A stretch of DNA of 64,000 bases, from the NCBI GenBank assembly GCA_017592665.1, contig JAGFNW010000011.1, positions 124,001-188,000 on the forward strand. Direction: 5' to 3'. A model generated the notes under the pieces. That model was not told where the DNA came from, searched no databases, and saw nothing but the letters and a program-made list of their open reading frames with translations. Source of the stretch: Streptosporangiaceae bacterium NEAU-GS5 (GTDB lineage: Bacteria > Actinomycetota > Actinomycetes > Streptosporangiales > Streptosporangiaceae). The first letter of the stretch is position 1; each line of letters opens with the position of its first letter. Below, piece by piece: positions 32,475 through 39,042 of the stretch. The position numbers and the translations under genes were made by a program.

Positions 32475-34920
32475 GATCACCATTCCCGAGATGTCACTGG
32501 TGGTACTGGTCGGAGTGTCCGGCAGCGGCAAGTCGACCTTCGCCGCCAAGCACTTCACGCCCACGCAGGTCATCTCGTCCGACTTCTGCCGCGGCCTGGT
32601 CGCCGACGACGAGAACGACCAGAGCTCCACACCCGACGCTTTCGACGTCCTGCACTACATCGTCGGCACCCGGCTGCGGCGCGGGCTGCTGACCGTCGTC
32701 GACGCCACCAACGTCCAATACGAGTCCCGCCGGGCCCTGCTGGAGCTGGCCAAGGCCCACGACGTGCTGTGCGACGCGATCGTCCTGGACGTGCCCGAGG
32801 AGGTCGCGGTCGAGCGCAACGCCGTACGGCCCGACCGCGACTTCGGATCGCACGTGATCGGGCGGCAGCGGCGCGACCTGCGCCGGTCCCTCGGCAAGAT
32901 CTCCAGGGACGGGTTCCGCCGGGTGCACGTGCTGCGTGGGGACCAGATCGACCAGGCCGTCGTCGCGTACGAGAAGGCCTGGACGGACAAGCGTGAGCTG
33001 ACCGGGCCCTTCGACCTCATCGGCGACGTGCACGGATGCCGCGCCGAGCTGGAGACGCTGCTGGCCCGGCTCGGCTACGTGGAAGGCGCGCACCCCGAGG
33101 GGCGCACGGCCGTCTTCGTCGGCGACCTGGTCGACCGCGGCCCCGATACGCCGGGCGTGCTGCGCATCGTCATGGACATGGTCGAGGCCGGCACGGCGCT
33201 GTGCGTGTCGGGCAACCACGAGCAGAAGCTGACGCGCGCCCTCAACGGGCGGAAGGTCACCGTCTCGCACGGCTTGCAGGAGTCGCTCGACCAGCTGGCC
33301 GCGCAGGACGCGGCCTTCGTGGCCCGGGCGAGGACGTTCATGGAAGGCCTGATCAGCCACTATCAGCTGGACGGCGGCCGGCTCGTGGTCGCGCACGCGG
33401 GGCTGAAGGAGGCCTATCACGGGCGCGCCAGCGGCCGGGTCCGGTCCTTCGCCCTCTATGGGGACACCACCGGCGAGACCGACGAATACGGCCTGCCGGT
33501 CCGGCTCCCGTGGGCGCGCGACTACCGCGGCCGCGCCATGGTCGTCTACGGCCACACGCCGACCACCGAGGCCGAGTGGATCAACAACACCATCTGCCTG
33601 GACACCGGGGTGGTGTTCGGCGGCAAGCTGACCGCGCTCCGCTATCCCGAGCGGGAGCTCGTCTCGGTGCCCGCCGAGCAGATGTGGTACGAACCGTCCC
33701 GCCCGCTGACCAAGCACGGTGTGCGCGAGCCGGGCCTGCTCGACATCGCCGACGTGCAGGGCACCCGCTACGTCGAGATCCAGGACGGCGGCCGGATCAA
33801 GGTCAGGGAGGAGAACGCGGCGGCCGCGCTCGAGGTCATGAGCCGGTTCGCGGTGGATCCGCGCTGGCTGGTCTATCTGCCGCCGACGATGGCCCCGCCG
33901 GAGACGTCCCGTCTGGACGGCTACCTGGAGCACCCGGACGAGGCGTTCGAGGAGTACGCGCGTGCTGGGGTGGGGCGGGTCGTGTGCGAGGAGAAGCACA
34001 TGGGTTCGCGGGCGATAGCCGTACTGGCCAAAAGCCCCGAAGCGGCCGAGCGGCGCTTCGGGATCGCGGGGACGGGCGTCGTCTACACGAGGACCGGGCG
34101 GCCGTTCGGGATGGAGGGCCTGACCGACCGGCTGCGTGAGGCGGTCGCCCCGCTGTGGGACGCGCTCGACACCGACTGGGTGGCGCTCGACTGCGAGCTG
34201 CTGCCGTGGTCGGCCAAGGCGCTCGGGCTGATCCGCGACCAGTATGCGGCGGTCGGCGCCGCGGCGACCGCGGCGCTGCCCGCGGCCGTCGCCGCGCTGG
34301 AGACGGCTGCCGGGCGGGGGTTGGATGTGGGCTCACACTTGGTCCGCGCCCGACGCCGCCGAGACAACGCTGCCCGTTTCCGCGACGCCTATGCGCGTTA
34401 CTGCTGGCCGATCGACGGCCTGTCCGGCGTACGGCTCGCGCCGTTCCAGATCCTCGCCTGCGAGGGCCGCGCGACCGCGCTCGAGCCGCACTCCTGGCAC
34501 CTGGAGACCCTCGGGCTGCTCGACCACGAGATCATCCAGCCGACCCGGCACGTGTACGTGGATCTGGCCTCGCCCGAGGACCGCGCCCGCGCGAGCGCGT
34601 GGTGGACCGAGATGACCGAGTCGGGCGGCGAGGGCATGGTGGTCAAACCGGTCGAGGTCCCCGGCGGCAGGGTCCAGCCGGGGATCAAGGTCAGAGGACG
34701 GGAGTATCTGCGGATCATCTACGGCCCCGACTACACCGAGTCGCTCGACACGCTCCGCCACCGCTTCCTCGGCAAGAAGCGGTCGCTGGCGCTGCGCGAG
34801 CACGCCCTCGGCGTCGAGGCGCTGCGCCGCCTGGCCGGCGGCGAGCCGCTGTGGCGCGTCCACGAGCCGGTGTTCGCCGTGCTCGCCATGGAGTCGGAGC
34901 CGGTCGACCCACGTCTGTAA
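32467..34920 (+). CDS. pnkp: Polynucleotide kinase-phosphatase-ligase Pnkp (RNA repair)
   Basis: This three-domain RNA end-healing and sealing enzyme has 817 residues. The 5' kinase (about 1-170) has P-loop GVSGSGKST. The metallophosphatase (about 180-440) has GDVHG, GDLVDRGPDT, GNHEQKL and a late GHTPT, and removes 2',3'-cyclic phosphate. The adenylyltransferase (about 480-817) carries the nucleotidyl Lys510 in EEKHMGSR. Together with Hen1 it repairs tRNA or other RNA cut by ribotoxins. The GTG at 32467 overlaps hen1, so the two subunits are made together. No toxin gene is seen nearby. All key residues are present, so the system looks functional. Confidence 0.96.
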   Translation: MTEITIPEMSLVVLVGVSGSGKSTFAAKHFTPTQVISSDFCRGLVADDENDQSSTPDAFDVLHYIVGTRLRRGLLTVVDATNVQYESRRALLELAKAHDVLCDAIVLDVPEEVAVERNAVRPDRDFGSHVIGRQRRDLRRSLGKISRDGFRRVHVLRGDQIDQAVVAYEKAWTDKRELTGPFDLIGDVHGCRAELETLLARLGYVEGAHPEGRTAVFVGDLVDRGPDTPGVLRIVMDMVEAGTALCVSGNHEQKLTRALNGRKVTVSHGLQESLDQLAAQDAAFVARARTFMEGLISHYQLDGGRLVVAHAGLKEAYHGRASGRVRSFALYGDTTGETDEYGLPVRLPWARDYRGRAMVVYGHTPTTEAEWINNTICLDTGVVFGGKLTALRYPERELVSVPAEQMWYEPSRPLTKHGVREPGLLDIADVQGTRYVEIQDGGRIKVREENAAAALEVMSRFAVDPRWLVYLPPTMAPPETSRLDGYLEHPDEAFEEYARAGVGRVVCEEKHMGSRAIAVLAKSPEAAERRFGIAGTGVVYTRTGRPFGMEGLTDRLREAVAPLWDALDTDWVALDCELLPWSAKALGLIRDQYAAVGAAATAALPAAVAALETAAGRGLDVGSHLVRARRRRDNAARFRDAYARYCWPIDGLSGVRLAPFQILACEGRATALEPHSWHLETLGLLDHEIIQPTRHVYVDLASPEDRARASAWWTEMTESGGEGMVVKPVEVPGGRVQPGIKVRGREYLRIIYGPDYTESLDTLRHRFLGKKRSLALREHALGVEALRRLAGGEPLWRVHEPVFAVLAMESEPVDPRL

Positions 34921-34924
34921 CCTT

Positions 34925-34944
34925 GTGTATCCGCCTGGGTACAC
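34925..34944. promoter_or_regulatory. Imperfect operator dyad upstream of glcP
   Basis: GTGTATCC (34925-34932) and GGGTACAC (34937-34944) form a dyad with one mismatch and a 4-base centre, only 7 bases before the glcP ATG. A site this close to the start suggests repression of transcription. Confidence 0.45.
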
Positions 34945-34951
34945 AGAGTGT

Positions 34952-36343
34952 ATGGCGGGAGCGAAAGAGGAGCATCTCAGCCACGTCGTGTTCATCACGG
35001 CGGCGGCCGCGATCGGCGGGTTCCTGTTCGGCTACGACAGCTCGGTGATCAACGGCGCGGTGAAGGGCATCGAGGGCCGATTCAACGCGGCCGGTTTCGT
35101 CACCGGGTTCGTCGTGGCCTCCGCGCTGATCGGGTCGGCGGTGGGCGCGTGGTTCGGCGGCGGGATCGCCGACCGCCTGGGCCGGACCGTCGCCATGCGC
35201 ATCGCGGCCGGCGTCTTCGCCGTCAGCTCGATCGGGCAGGCCCTGCCGTTCGCGCTGTGGGATCTGACCGTGTGGCGGGTGCTGGCCGGTGTCGCGATCG
35301 GCATGGCGTCGGTGATCGGGCCTGCGTACATCGCCGAGGTCTCGCCGCCCGCCTACCGTGGCAGGCTCGGGTCGTTCCAGCAGCTCGCGATCGTGCTCGG
35401 GATCGCGGTGTCGCAGCTGGTCAACTACGCGATCCTGGAGCTGGCCGGGGGCGACCAGCGCGGGACGCTGCTGGGGCTGGAGGCGTGGCAGTGGATGCTC
35501 GGCGCCTGCGTGGTGCCCGCCCTGGTCTATCTGACCTTCGCCTTCATCATCCCCGAGTCGCCGCGCTTCCTGATCGCCGTCGGGCGGCGCGACAAGGCGC
35601 GGCTGGTGCTGCGGGACGTGGAGGGCGACATCGACCTCGACCGCCGGGTCGCCCAGATCGAGGCCGTGCTGACCATGGAGCACCTGCCGCGCATGTCCGA
35701 TCTGCGGGGGCCGGCGTTCGGGCTGCTGCCGATCGTCTGGATCGGCATCGGCCTGTCGGTGTTCCAGCAGTTCGTCGGCATCAATGTGATCTTCTACTAC
35801 TCGAACGCGCTGTGGCAGTCGGTGGGGATCAACCCGAGCAGCTCGTTCCTCATCAGCTTCTCGTCGTCGATCATCAACATCGTCGGCACGTGTGTCGCCA
35901 TCTCGATGATCGACAAGATCGGGCGCAGGCCGCTCGCCCTGATCGGCTCGATCGGCATGACGTTGTCGCTCGGCACCGCCGCCTGGGCCTTCTCCTACGC
36001 CGAGGGGAGCGGCGACCACGTCTCGCTCCCCGACCCGCAGAGCATGATCGCGCTCATCGCGGCCAACCTCTTCGTCCTGTTCTTCTCACTGTCGTGGGGT
36101 GTGGTGGTCTGGGTGCTGCTGGGCGAGATCTTCCCCAACCGGATCCGCGCCGCGGCGCTCTCCGTGGCCGCCGCGGCCCAGTGGGTGGCCAACTGGCTGA
36201 TCACCGTCACCTTCCCCAGCCTGTCATCCCGGAGCCTGTCCGGCGCCTACGCCGGCTACACGGTCTTCGCCGCCCTCTCCTTCGTCTTCGTCTTGATCTT
36301 CGTACGCGAAACCAAAGGCCGCCCCTTGGAAGAAATGGGCTGA
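34952..36343 (+). CDS. glcP: Sugar porter MFS permease, glucose type (GlcP-like)
   Basis: The 463-residue sugar/H+ symporter has 12 membrane segments. Family motifs are GFLFGYDSSVINGA in segment 1, ADRLGRT in loop 2-3, PAYRGRLGSFQQ, PESPRFL, FQQFVGINVIFYYS in segment 7 and the C-terminal RETKGRPLEEMG. It closely resembles Streptomyces GlcP, the main glucose uptake protein (compared from memory), so glucose is the likely substrate. The ATG at 34952 has no strong ribosome site; TACACA lies 6 bases before it, which may mean a leaderless message. The frame upstream to 34925 lies over the operator-like dyad. Confidence 0.88.
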   Translation: MAGAKEEHLSHVVFITAAAAIGGFLFGYDSSVINGAVKGIEGRFNAAGFVTGFVVASALIGSAVGAWFGGGIADRLGRTVAMRIAAGVFAVSSIGQALPFALWDLTVWRVLAGVAIGMASVIGPAYIAEVSPPAYRGRLGSFQQLAIVLGIAVSQLVNYAILELAGGDQRGTLLGLEAWQWMLGACVVPALVYLTFAFIIPESPRFLIAVGRRDKARLVLRDVEGDIDLDRRVAQIEAVLTMEHLPRMSDLRGPAFGLLPIVWIGIGLSVFQQFVGINVIFYYSNALWQSVGINPSSSFLISFSSSIINIVGTCVAISMIDKIGRRPLALIGSIGMTLSLGTAAWAFSYAEGSGDHVSLPDPQSMIALIAANLFVLFFSLSWGVVVWVLLGEIFPNRIRAAALSVAAAAQWVANWLITVTFPSLSSRSLSGAYAGYTVFAALSFVFVLIFVRETKGRPLEEMG

Positions 36344-36350
36344 CCCCCCT

Positions 36351-36470
36351 CCCGCGTGATCTTGCAGAATTTCCATCGCCCAGCTCACCGGCTCGGTGAT
36401 CTTGCAGCGTCGCTGCATGATCACGAAATCCCTGACCTGCGGCTTGGGAGAACGTGCAAGATCACGCGGG
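36351..36470. repeat. Nested palindromic element between convergent genes
   Basis: The outer arms CCCGCGTGATCTTGCA (36351-36366) and its exact reverse complement (36455-36470) enclose an inner hairpin. That hairpin is GTGATCTTGCAGC, three bases, then its reverse complement with one mismatch (about 36396-36424). All four arms share the core GTGATCTTGCA. It fills the 130-bp gap between glcP and the DUF1707 gene. It has no T-run, so it is not a classical terminator; a REP/BIME-like palindromic repeat is a good alternative. Confidence 0.8.
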
Positions 36471-36473
36471 GGG

Positions 36474-37067
36474 TTAGCGGGGGCGGCGGAAGCGGGTGAG
36501 GGTGACGATGGTGCCGATGAGCCAGAAGAAGAAGAAAATCTTCAGGGCGAAGAAGAGGGGCCAGGCCGCGCCGGTGATGAGGGCGGCGATGGCGAGGATG
36601 AGAAGGAGCACTATGGGGAATGGAGGGCCGCCGCGGCGTCGGGGGCCGAAGCGGTTGGGGTGGCGGCCACGGCCAGTGCGGGACATGCCGGCGGCCCAGG
36701 GCGGGCCCATGAAGCCGTTGCCGGGGCCGCGGAAAGGGCCGTTGAACGGGCCGATGCCGGGGGTGTTGAAGGGGCCGCGGTGGGTGTGGGGGCCGGCGAC
36801 CTGGCGGCCGTAGTCTTCGCCGAGTCGGCGGGCCTGGTCGATGCGCCGCTCGCGCTCGGCCCGCTCCCATTCGGCGACGGTTTCTGAGGCGGGCAGATCG
36901 GCGGTCACACGCCGCAGATCGGCCGTGGTCTTCGCGGACAGTGTCGCGGTCAGGCGCTCGTCGAGCTCGGCGCGGTCGATGCGGCCCTGCGCGAACGCGT
37001 CGTGCAGGGCCTCGGTCACCGCGTCTCGCTCCCTGTCGCCGATGCGCAGGTCGTCGGGGTCGGTCAT
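36474..37067 (-). CDS. DUF1707 domain membrane protein
   Basis: The 197-residue protein starts with a DUF1707 domain (about 1-60: LRIGDRERDAVTEAL, then HDAFAQGRIDRAELDERL). A Gly/Pro/Asn/Phe-rich linker (FNTPGIGPFNGPFRGPGNG) follows, then two C-terminal membrane segments (about 150-190). DUF1707 occurs in many actinobacterial membrane or regulatory proteins with no firm function. The ATG at 37067 lies 7 bp after the PadR stop, so it is in one operon with that regulator and probably belongs to its stress response. Confidence 0.88.
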   Translation of the reverse strand: MTDPDDLRIGDRERDAVTEALHDAFAQGRIDRAELDERLTATLSAKTTADLRRVTADLPASETVAEWERAERERRIDQARRLGEDYGRQVAGPHTHRGPFNTPGIGPFNGPFRGPGNGFMGPPWAAGMSRTGRGRHPNRFGPRRRGGPPFPIVLLLILAIAALITGAAWPLFFALKIFFFFWLIGTIVTLTRFRRPR

Positions 37068-37074
37068 CGGTGGA

Positions 37075-37857
37075 TCACTCCTCGGCGGGGTCGCCGTCGG
37101 CCAGGATCTGGTAGAGCTTGCGCCGGGTCTCGTTGAGGACCTGCTTGGCCTCGCGGACCTGGGGCTCGGTGCCGGTCTGTGCGACCTGGACGAGCGCCCC
37201 GGCGGCCTGCCGAGCCAGGTGGAACAGCTCGTGGACGTCGTCGCCGATGTCGGGGGTCATTTCCTCCCACGGCGCGCGGACCTCGTCGGAGTGCTCCTGC
37301 ACATACGCCCGGCCGGCGTCGGTGAGCTGGAACGTCTTGCGCCCGTCGGTCTCGTCGGCGAGGACCAGGCCCTCGTCGGTGAGCTGCTGGAGCGCCGGAT
37401 AGACGGCTCCGGGGCTGGGCTTCCACCCGCCCTGGCTCCGCTCGGCGATCTCCTGAATGATCTGGTAGCCGTTGCGCGGCTCCTCGGCGAGCAGGGCGAG
37501 GATCGCGGCGCGCACGTCGCCGCGCTTGGCCTTGCGGGCACGGCCGAAGCCGCCGCCGCCCCGCCCGCCGAAGGGGAAGCCGGGGCCGAAGGGGAAGCCA
37601 GGGCCGAACGGGCCGCCGGGCCCGCCCCAGGGACCGCGCCCGCGGCCGCCACCGCGGGGGCCGCCCCGTGGCCGCTCTTCGTGGCCGCCCTGGTGGCTGT
37701 CGTGGTGACTGTGGTGAGGGCCGCGGCCGCGGCCCTCACCTTCCCAGGCCGCCGCGGCGGTGCGGAACGCCTCACGGAAGGCGTGCCGCATCTGGCGGCG
37801 GAGGTGGTCTGCGTGGGGCCTGTCCCAGCCCCATCCCATTGCGTGTGCTGAACTCAT
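37075..37857 (-). CDS. PadR-family transcriptional regulator with Gly/His-rich N-terminus
   Basis: The 260-residue regulator has a long N-terminal region (1-110) of Gly, Arg, His and Pro with repeats such as GPGFPFGPGFPFGG. A PadR winged helix (about 115-190: RAAILALLAEEPRNGYQII, then PGAVYPALQQLTDEGLV) follows, and a C-terminal helical dimerisation region comes last. The ATG at 37857 follows AAGGAG; the open frame upstream crosses the promoter. TATAGT (minus strand, 37882-37877) is a likely -10. The His-rich stretch (HHSHHDSHQGGHE) may bind metal. It probably represses itself and the DUF1707 gene. Confidence 0.88.
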   Translation of the reverse strand: MSSAHAMGWGWDRPHADHLRRQMRHAFREAFRTAAAAWEGEGRGRGPHHSHHDSHQGGHEERPRGGPRGGGRGRGPWGGPGGPFGPGFPFGPGFPFGGRGGGGFGRARKAKRGDVRAAILALLAEEPRNGYQIIQEIAERSQGGWKPSPGAVYPALQQLTDEGLVLADETDGRKTFQLTDAGRAYVQEHSDEVRAPWEEMTPDIGDDVHELFHLARQAAGALVQVAQTGTEPQVREAKQVLNETRRKLYQILADGDPAEE

Positions 37858-37914
37858 GGTGGACTCCTTGTAGACACTATAACGACCGGACTTCGATCGT
37901 TCGCGATGCCTCAA

Positions 37915-37924
37915 CGATATATCG
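37915..37924. promoter_or_regulatory. CGATATATCG operator upstream of padR gene
   Basis: This perfect 10-bp palindrome is AT-rich in a GC-rich genome. It lies 58 bases upstream of the PadR start and about 33 bases upstream of its probable -10. A likely autoregulatory PadR site. Confidence 0.55.
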
Positions 37925-38014
37925 CTAGTGTTCTATTCGCAACAGTGATTCAGATCACTCGAACTTGTCGTGGTTGCTGGGAACACCCGCCGATACCGGA
38001 GCGTTATCCACATC

Positions 38015-38076
38015 AGACGGGATTGTTCCGCGCTGAGAGGGCTGGGGGGTGCTCTTGGAGCGGAACGATCCCGTCT
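38015..38076. repeat. 16-bp inverted repeat forming a long hairpin
   Basis: AGACGGGATTGTTCCG (38015-38030) pairs with CGGAACGATCCCGTCT (38061-38076): 16 bp with one G-T pair. The 30-base loop can pair further through GAGAG and CTCTT. No T-run follows on either strand. It could be a structured RNA, a mobile palindrome or a protein-binding cruciform. Confidence 0.7.
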
Positions 38077-38192
38077 TCGCATGCGTGCCAGGAGGTCGGG
38101 TCGATAACGGGGCCTGACCTCGGCACGACACGCCTGGGCATTGCCAAGAATTGTCGGGGCCGTGTCGTACAGTGCCCAATCGTGATCGACGC

Positions 38193-38936
38193 ATGATGGG
38201 GCACTCGCACGCGCTGACAGGGGCTTTGGTGTGGCTGGCGGCGGCGCCCGCGCTGGCCGCTCTGCCACAGGCGATCGGGCAGGACACGGCGGTCACGGCC
38301 GACGTGTCGTTCGCGCTCTACGGGGTGCTGACGCCGGCCGAGCTGATCGCCGGGATGCTGATCTGCGCGGGCGCGGCCATGCTGCCCGACCTCGACCATC
38401 CCAACGCGACGATCGCGCACACCTTCGGCCCGGCCACCTGGGTGCTGAGCAAGATCGTCCACTTCGTCAGCGGCGGCCATCGGCACGCGACGCACTCGCT
38501 GCTGTTCGCGATCCTCGCCGGCGTGGGGGCCCACTGGCTCGCCTGGAATTCGACGGCCGGTCGCGACATCGTGGTCATCTTGATGATCGGCCTGGCCATC
38601 CGGTCGGTGGGCATCGGGGTGCCGGGAAAGAAGATCACGTCGGCGGTGGTCAACGTGGTCATCACCGGCGCCCTGTTCTGGACGTTCCTGGCGCATGACG
38701 TGACCTATGCCTGGCTCGGGTTCGCGATCGCCATCGGCAGCTTCGTCCACGTCGCGGGAGATTGCCTGACCGAGCACGGCTGCCCGGTGCTGTGGCCCTG
38801 GCAGGCGCGGTGGGTCCTGCCTTACAAGATCGGCTTCAAGACCGGCAAGACCTTCGAGGAGCGCTTCCTCGGGCCGGTCCTCGCGGTGGTCGTTCTCGGC
38901 CTGTTGTATCTTCGCCTCACGCCGGTTACCGGCTAG
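38193..38936 (+). CDS. Membrane-bound metal-dependent hydrolase (YdjM/LexA-regulated type)
   Basis: The 247-residue integral membrane protein is of the PF04307 family. The metal-site motifs are MGHSHALTG at the start, LPDLDHPNA near 70, HRHATHSLL near 98 and the late HVAGDCLTEHG. It has about five membrane segments. The E. coli relative YdjM is SOS-induced, but the biochemical substrate is unknown. ATG codons at 38193 and 38196 are both usable. TACAGT at 38169-38174 may serve as the -10. Confidence 0.85.
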   Translation: MMGHSHALTGALVWLAAAPALAALPQAIGQDTAVTADVSFALYGVLTPAELIAGMLICAGAAMLPDLDHPNATIAHTFGPATWVLSKIVHFVSGGHRHATHSLLFAILAGVGAHWLAWNSTAGRDIVVILMIGLAIRSVGIGVPGKKITSAVVNVVITGALFWTFLAHDVTYAWLGFAIAIGSFVHVAGDCLTEHGCPVLWPWQARWVLPYKIGFKTGKTFEERFLGPVLAVVVLGLLYLRLTPVTG

Positions 38937-38939
38937 TAG

Positions 38940-38979
38940 CTTGATGTCGAGATATTTCCTGAGATATCTTGACATCAAG
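38940..38979. promoter_or_regulatory. Large operator dyad upstream of aconitase gene
   Basis: CTTGATGTCGAGATAT (38940-38955) and ATATCTTGACATCAAG (38964-38979) match as an inverted repeat in 15 of 16 positions with 8 bases between. TTGACA inside the right arm (38969-38974) could be the -35, so a bound protein would block RNA polymerase. In Streptomyces the MarR-family protein TamR is reported to control the aconitase gene; whether this is its site is untested. Confidence 0.7.
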
Positions 38980-39042
38980 ACATCTGCCGCGTGGCAGGAT
39001 GCCATGTGTCGTGAGAAGTGAAGACAGTGGGGAGGAGCCGTC

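Follow-up and report, generated by a model that had tools for sequence, protein, structure and literature searches.

A double palindrome between two convergent genes of a Streptosporangiaceae bacterium is one of many evenly spaced repeat arrays just behind genes

Tandem units at gene junctions are known in actinobacteria from the mycobacterial interspersed repetitive units (MIRUs), which may overlap stop or start codons; we know of no MIRU in which blocks of units face each other. REPs, another class of short repeats at such sites, are defined in the part of PMC3733652 drawn on here by a palindromic unit with a GTAG or CGTC tag, and they sit close behind ORFs, in both convergent and same-direction gaps (PMC3733652 and PMC2817692, relevant parts). 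The list of phyla with GTAG and CGTC repeats in that part of PMC3733652 does not have the actinobacteria among them. BIME-2 elements bind gyrase according to the part of PMC2817692 used. Finally, sequence-bound proteins such as Reb1 and Rap1 in yeast, and LacI or dCas9 in bacteria, act as DNA-bound roadblocks to RNA polymerase, and roadblocking by Rap1 is orientation-dependent (PMC10310618, section on roadblocks).

The element described here lies in the window, i.e., the whole 64,000-nucleotide stretch analysed from Streptosporangiaceae bacterium NEAU-GS5 (the host). It is located exactly between two stop codons and, as a preliminary description of this DNA had stated, makes up the whole gap of two convergent genes; this gap measures 130 bp. 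Its parts, read from the sequence, and the two genes, assigned by open reading frame and Pfam, are as follows:

34925..36343, plus strand: upstream convergent gene, sugar transporter (Sugar_tr, PF00083); its stop codon adjoins the element
36344..36355, plus strand: C-rich lead from the stop codon to the first core (compare the leads before outermost cores, below)
36356..36366, plus strand: outer forward core GTGATCTTGCA, which opens a 40-bp unit (36356-36395)
36396..36406, plus strand: inner forward core GTGATCTTGCA
36407..36413, no strand: 7-bp centre separating the facing cores
36414..36424, minus strand: inner reverse core, GTGATCATGCA on the minus strand
36455..36465, minus strand: outer reverse core, which reads GTGATCTTGCA on that strand and lies 41 bp from its inner counterpart
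36466..36473, minus strand: G-rich tail, corresponding to the C-rich lead when the minus-strand side is read
36474..37067, minus strand: downstream convergent gene, DUF1707 protein (PF08044); its stop codon adjoins the element

That is, the TGA of the sugar transporter is followed by lead, core, spacer, core and centre, and then by the same parts reversed up to the DUF1707 stop. The perfect 16-bp outer inverted repeat of the preliminary description was recovered, with 36351-36366 (CCCGCGTGATCTTGCA) and 36455-36470 being exact reverse complements, as was the inner hairpin, with 13 of 14 positions paired between its arms (36396-36409 and 36411-36424). The same core does recur in all four arms to within one base, but not identically: the 7th core base is T or A, and this base is also the mismatch of the inner arms (T in one arm, A in the other). 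A T-run is absent, as had been said, a terminator scan of 35900-36900 giving 0 sites. The description had not included the direct repeats, which are 40 and 41 bp apart. The observation is real and far beyond chance, and the double palindrome belongs to a large set of repeat arrays with even spacing just behind genes.

The genome search that the preliminary description had proposed yielded 122 exact occurrences of GTGATCTTGCA in the 9.96-Mb host genome, with the paired-arm layout recurring, and 212 occurrences of GTGATCWTGCA. The reversed control word had 0 occurrences; it contains CTAG, which is rare in many bacteria, and therefore the survey of the class given below is the better yardstick. 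Since the core is not unique and four relatives show gaps of 8-56 bp at this convergent pair instead, the element is not a singular sequence kept only as a terminator between glcP and DUF1707 genes. In its full form, an array consists of a C-rich lead behind a stop codon and two or three 41-bp units, each opening with GTGATC(T/A)TGCA, and then of the same reversed; the window element represents a 2+2 version and other copies are 3+3. Genome-wide, 71 of 84 core-to-core steps in the host measure 41 bp. We analysed 41 loci, i.e., the window and 40 further loci from among the listed core places, which include single-core places that are probably due to chance and, having been selected by the exact core, under-sample decayed elements; 36 clusters of at least two exact cores lie in them. 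When one mismatch is allowed, cores 39-43 bp apart form 49 chains, 35 of three units and 14 of two units, with none longer. In the three-unit chains, 34 of 35 first units have T as the 7th core base, whereas A is found there in 16 of the 35 middle units and in 30 of the 35 last ones, and the consensus of the 41-bp unit (over 71 units) is GTGATCTTGCASKWWYTCCC....CSCWGSTCRS.SS.TYS. The orientation of the arrays is strict: successive core pairs in the 41 loci are 35 times forward-forward, 23 times forward-reverse and 36 times reverse-reverse, and never reverse-then-forward (n=94). In loci L013, L022 and L025, the facing cores are separated by a near-identical 12-bp palindromic centre (atgcacgtgcat and one-base variants of it), possibly the trace of a common origin.

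Placement was assessed with a home-made codon-usage gene caller, in stretches that, for the other genomes, were chosen around listed cores. The first core follows a same-direction stop at a median distance of 13-24 nt in five genome groups, and at longer medians (43 and 61 nt) in two small groups. The outermost core is at most 60 nt from a 3' end in 101 of 117 cases and from a 5' end in 13 of 51 (forward cores following a reverse core in the same cluster being omitted from this count), and 12 clusters were found inside called genes vs. 168 outside. In the five groups, the 20 nt before outermost cores are 48-66% C and 13-21% G, compared to 33-43% C and 29-37% G in core-free gaps behind stops. 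At 9 of the 45 adjacent 3' ends in the host genome the called stop is a TGA within the core itself. Such placement alone does not set the arrays apart, because REPs are similarly placed. A common regulon was considered and rejected, with no common function apparent among the 20 genes scanned (18 with Pfam matches) of those at the 45 array-adjoining 3' ends. Of the one-sided arrays in same-direction gaps, 18 have the orientation of the upstream gene and 11 the opposite one (p 0.26), a split that lends no support to a strictly polar terminator. One such array is located between chorismate synthase and shikimate kinase genes of one direction, and the ATG of the latter, as read from the letters, apparently falls within the inner core. 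An aroC/aroK junction common to the host and genome G373 was also considered, and the two turned out not to be the same junction.

A few arrays enclose genes. In L012 (2366-3298), an ABC-transporter ATPase gene sits between forward and reverse half-arrays, with its called start in the inner core of one of them. In G373 (L142:5640-8640), two shikimate-kinase-like genes lie behind chorismate synthase, the second enclosed by a forward and a reverse array, and in G432 (L151:17004-18450) a gene of ~418 codons, with a C-terminal motif that we take to be HNH-like, lies between a forward and a reverse core. A cassette with a passenger gene was rejected, given that a single ABC-ATPase gene was found between half-arrays and the other enclosed genes are unrelated to it.

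Arrays or hairpins with the same core and with other units and periods are patchily distributed across the class, although it should be kept in mind that the 11-bp core is common to the lineages by construction of the searches. At least 20 GTGATCWTGCA cores are present in 10 of 394 class genomes, host included, and all others have at most 15 by our reading of the table; two congeners differ by 328 vs. 1 cores. Same-direction cores exactly 41 bp apart occur 87 times in the host; among the other 344 genomes of the order, 3 have a single such pair. A scan of named genomes for the 41-bp core pair, which possibly left out the host, returned four stretches, all in other species. Facing cores no more than 30 bp apart were found in 31 of the 345 genomes of the order, which belong to 12 of its 70 genera (host included), namely in five of five genomes of group g23, four of fifteen of g58, at 119 places in G025, and as single matches in several others. 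The forms differ among these. The period is 53 bp in g23 (75 of 81 steps) and g58 (55 of 78), i.e., about one helical turn more than the 41 bp of the host; the G373 unit comprises an invariant 23-mer (in 36 of 37 units) and a locus-specific spacer, and its direct spacings range from 23 to 64 bp across elements, with no common period; and G025 carries single hairpins, 18 distinct ones, the stems of which differ between hairpins yet stay complementary. Two loci of G371 (L107 and L123) show tandem same-direction cores with a 22-bp period, unlike the facing arrays, and in g58 (L112, L120, L235, L236 and L237) TTGTCGCA and TGCGACAA occur on either side of arrays, close to the outer ends and ~200-215 bp apart, possibly as an extra site of the outer unit. 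Replichore strand bias, suggested by G373 having only plus-strand cores among the matches listed, was rejected since the fetched loci contain minus-strand sites. Carriage by phages was likewise rejected, there being no convergent pairs in viral contigs; the letters of nine viral stretches with direct pairs are unlike the arrays and eight of these are 42-50% G+C. In the ninth, L218 (61% G+C), the start of the contig carries two direct cores together with a near-core that faces them (98-143).

At the junction of the window element itself, 19 relative loci were compared: four keep the sugar-transporter/DUF1707 pair within 100 bp, two have a DUF1707 match ~700 bp off, and 13 have none. The convergent gaps of the four are 13 bp (L202, G012), 10 bp (L203, G339), 8 bp (L204, G009) and 56 bp (L213, G065), vs. 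the 130-bp element here. The array was either gained in the host or lost in the relatives. Absence at the G065 junction does not equal absence of the system, as this genome has 35 facing pairs elsewhere. Ten matched loci of G388, G405 and G419 (the genus of G432) contained no exact core, although rearranged gene order prevented the matching of exact junctions there. Congeners have related genes that are free of cores.

The cores and their spacing are well preserved where arrays are present. Exactly 41 bp downstream of an exact core (n=136), we found a perfect core in 60 cases; another 14 had 9-10 of 11 matches, 2 had 8, and the remaining 60 had at most 7, a distribution that neutral decay does not give since the spacers are saturated while the cores are intact. 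At one orthologous gene end, all six species compared (G224, G225, G226, G022, G227 and G090) have the array, with flanks in the other five 84-97% identical to those of G224. The steps measure 52-53 bp, one of them in G022 being divided into 35+18, and the two cores of the centre pair lie 23-24 bp from each other; the unit numbers are, in the same order and with near-cores counted, 3+4, 4+5, 2+2, 4+5, 3+4 and 3+3, G227 having one additional weak near-core (the loci of G226, G227 and G090 appear more than once in the output). Across 11 congeneric comparisons pooled, identity is 0.948 in the cores (766 columns) and 0.739 in the spacers (2153 columns), values that come from overlapping pairs, include one badly aligned pair (L264-L268, 0.67 and 0.52), and are slightly biased in favour of the cores because these were defined in one member of each pair. 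At one junction where the genes on either side correspond (87% and 75% protein identity), the host (41-bp period) and G105 (53-bp period) both have an array; as the only such case, it may be due to chance. The arrays are under constraint in the genera compared. Dependence between positions within the unit is limited to close positions and is never stem-shaped. Finally, the lengths of facing pairs cluster at 24, 34-35, 39-40 and 49-51 bp among 83 listed pairs (G059 and G025 excepted), and a test for helical spacing gave p 0.010-0.029 for periods of 10-11.5 (uniform null, distinct lengths per genus, species being related); no such clustering is seen by eye in the G373 spacings, and we regard helical phasing as suggestive only.

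Several mechanisms might underlie these patterns. The preliminary description considered the layout typical of REP/BIME elements moved by RAYT transposases, and half of this reading stands: the arrays are a dispersed extragenic family of high copy number, with a repeated paired-arm layout, close to gene 3' ends. The other half, mobilisation by RAYT (TnpA-REP), is not supported, and was rejected. No match to Y1_Tnp (PF01797) was found in the host genome (a draft of 127 contigs, 99.43% complete) or, more broadly, in 10 of 11 core-rich genomes, host included (two of these being just 84% complete), while G096 has three matches and three non-enriched congeners tested have 1 to 10; moreover, the consensus of the 41-bp unit carries no GTAG or CGTC tag, the orientation does not alternate as in BIMEs (0 reverse-then-forward among 94 core pairs), and the spacers give no signal of copying. 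Alternatively, the arrays might be a mobile REP- or MITE-like family served by a non-RAYT transposase that would recognise the cores, insertions being tolerated at gene ends. The patchy distribution described above (in terms of both core-rich genomes and convergent pairs), the 328 vs. 1 cores of two congeners, the element at a junction where four relatives have short gaps, and the 12-bp centre common to three elements are consistent with mobility, as is the same 3' placement of REPs (PMC3733652, in the part used). However, spacer identity in the host is 0.560 in the same arm, 0.574 between opposite arms and 0.562 between different elements, and spacer matches (of 30; mean 16.88, sd 2.74, maximum 25) fit an independent site model (17.14, 2.70, 26.1). 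Likewise, the values are 0.54 within vs. 0.52 between loci in g23 and 0.45 vs. 0.47 in g58 (in the period and spacer analysis of these two, L264 and L268 were dropped as orthologues of L256, and orthologues L293 and L299 were kept). That is, recent copies that are alike beyond recognition sites, as in MITEs, were not seen among the spacers of the host, g23 and g58, and, as far as can be seen, the copies of these three genera do not look transposed. Further, arrays remain at orthologous sites, most core-rich genomes lack Y1_Tnp, and in G373 the likeness of units (same arm 0.86, opposite arms 0.38, other elements 0.48) points to tandem duplication in place (G432 provided just 5 same-arm spacer pairs). 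A mobile family is thus an unlikely explanation to us, and the sequences would be classed as dispersed extragenic repeat arrays, with no support for RAYT-driven REPs; this cautions against taking any abundant extragenic palindrome for a RAYT-driven REP.

The element might also act as RNA, with the transcribed array forming a long hairpin that ends transcription or protects the mRNA 3' end. The window element folds strongly (-75.9 kcal/mol with z -8.4 on one strand, -77.1 kcal/mol with z -8.1 on the other), as do two-sided elements in general (n=22, median z -8.1), and the location directly behind stop codons, the C-rich leads, which would suit Rho, and the G025 stems, which differ in sequence yet are paired across at least the first 17 positions in 16 of 18 hairpins, all agree with such a role. 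Yet one-sided arrays (n=13) have a median z of -0.7 (range -4.6 to 1.2; single-core clusters and elements >400 bp set aside), on median no better than shuffles, and hence the hairpin is not essential. The GC-rich hairpin with T-run of an intrinsic terminator is not seen either: there is no TTTT within 15 nt at any of 84 element edges, and the hairpin occurs in two-sided elements only. Since opposite arms scarcely exceed arms from different elements in likeness, arm pairing is not selected beyond the common consensus, and Rfam at gathering scores gave 0 matches in 34000-39000. An RNA hairpin is, therefore, possible for two-sided arrays and hardly so for one-sided ones, and RNA action is distinctly unlikely to explain the family. 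A further option is that the arrays are landing sites of gyrase or another topoisomerase, like BIME-2 of Escherichia coli, which relieve supercoils between convergent genes with no dedicated factor involved. Gyrase is generally considered universal, yet most relatives are without arrays, and a core this long and strict is unusual for gyrase sites. The 23 clusters in 53 convergent gaps vs. 7 in 77 divergent gaps (four sets of core-rich genomes, in stretches selected around cores), together with the gyrase-binding precedent of BIME-2 (PMC2817692, in the part used), fit this option, which we nonetheless consider very improbable.

We favor, with a probability of about 0.4, the hypothesis that the element is an array of duplex-DNA sites for a putative sequence-specific host DNA-binding protein, which would form a barrier at gene ends. 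Under this hypothesis, the 11-bp core GTGATC(A/T)TGCA would be the main recognition sequence, further short blocks of the unit would also count, as would spacing in genera with a fixed period, and the mostly 2-4 facing sites per side would assemble a protein complex of fixed geometry just behind stop codons. The barrier may halt RNA polymerase (read-through, antisense or head-on) or confine supercoils between transcription units. We infer DNA rather than RNA as the target, since a protein complex on duplex DNA would select for a non-palindromic core, for further blocks, for dependence between close bases and for a period kept despite spacer turnover; the cores and the orthologous arrays have the character of sequence-specific sites under selection. 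Given the 18 vs. 11 orientations and the array in an aroC/aroK-type gap, an either-direction barrier or a topological boundary seems more likely than a dedicated terminator, and the bidirectional transcription barrier offered as the second idea of the preliminary description may accordingly be seen as part of the hypothesis favored here. That our figure is not higher reflects the orientation test and the forms seen in G025 and G373, none of which favors protein docking: the differing but complementary stems of G025 fit a palindrome or RNA reading equally well, and the varying direct spacings of G373 (23-64 bp) mean that a fixed period is not general. The patchy distribution and the related congener genes without cores also count against docking, and REPs have a similar 3' placement without being such host binding arrays, at least in the part of PMC3733652 used.

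A more specific version, in which a dedicated actinobacterial protein reads tandem, facing, fixed-period arrays behind unrelated genes as punctuation of transcription units, is somewhat doubtful; in that case, the 41- and 53-bp periods would reflect coevolution of sites and protein. If the arrays are docking sites, some actinomycetes would use a bound protein to mark gene ends, either in addition to hairpins and Rho or in their place. Because the motif is long and abundant and its distribution patchy (four of fifteen genomes in g58; 328 vs. 1 cores in congeners), the putative factor should be findable by gene-content comparison or pull-down, and the arrays offer a natural case in which unit and period differ genome-wide between genera with the core constant.

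In the literature, six core strings returned nothing that is about bacterial repeats by title among the matches listed, and these arrays were not described in the matches listed for word searches on actinobacterial REPs, Streptosporangiaceae repeats, REPIN/RAYT, roadblocks and MIRU. Compared with the systems introduced above, the arrays resemble REPs and BIMEs, as portrayed in the parts of the two papers used, in their many short extragenic copies, inverted partners and placement close behind ORFs. They differ in the unit, which is a direct repeat of 41 or 53 bp whose 11-bp core is not palindromic, where REPs have a tagged palindrome, in blocks that face each other where BIME units alternate, and in a host without Y1 transposase and spacers without copying. 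The likeness to protein roadblocks, as presented in the section used, consists of sites behind genes, provided that a protein occupies the cores; unlike those, the arrays are tandem, two-sided and of fixed period. With MIRUs, they share tandem units at gene junctions that can overlap stops, as the core TGA does where it serves as the called stop (9 of 45 3' ends), but have another sequence and another unit length.
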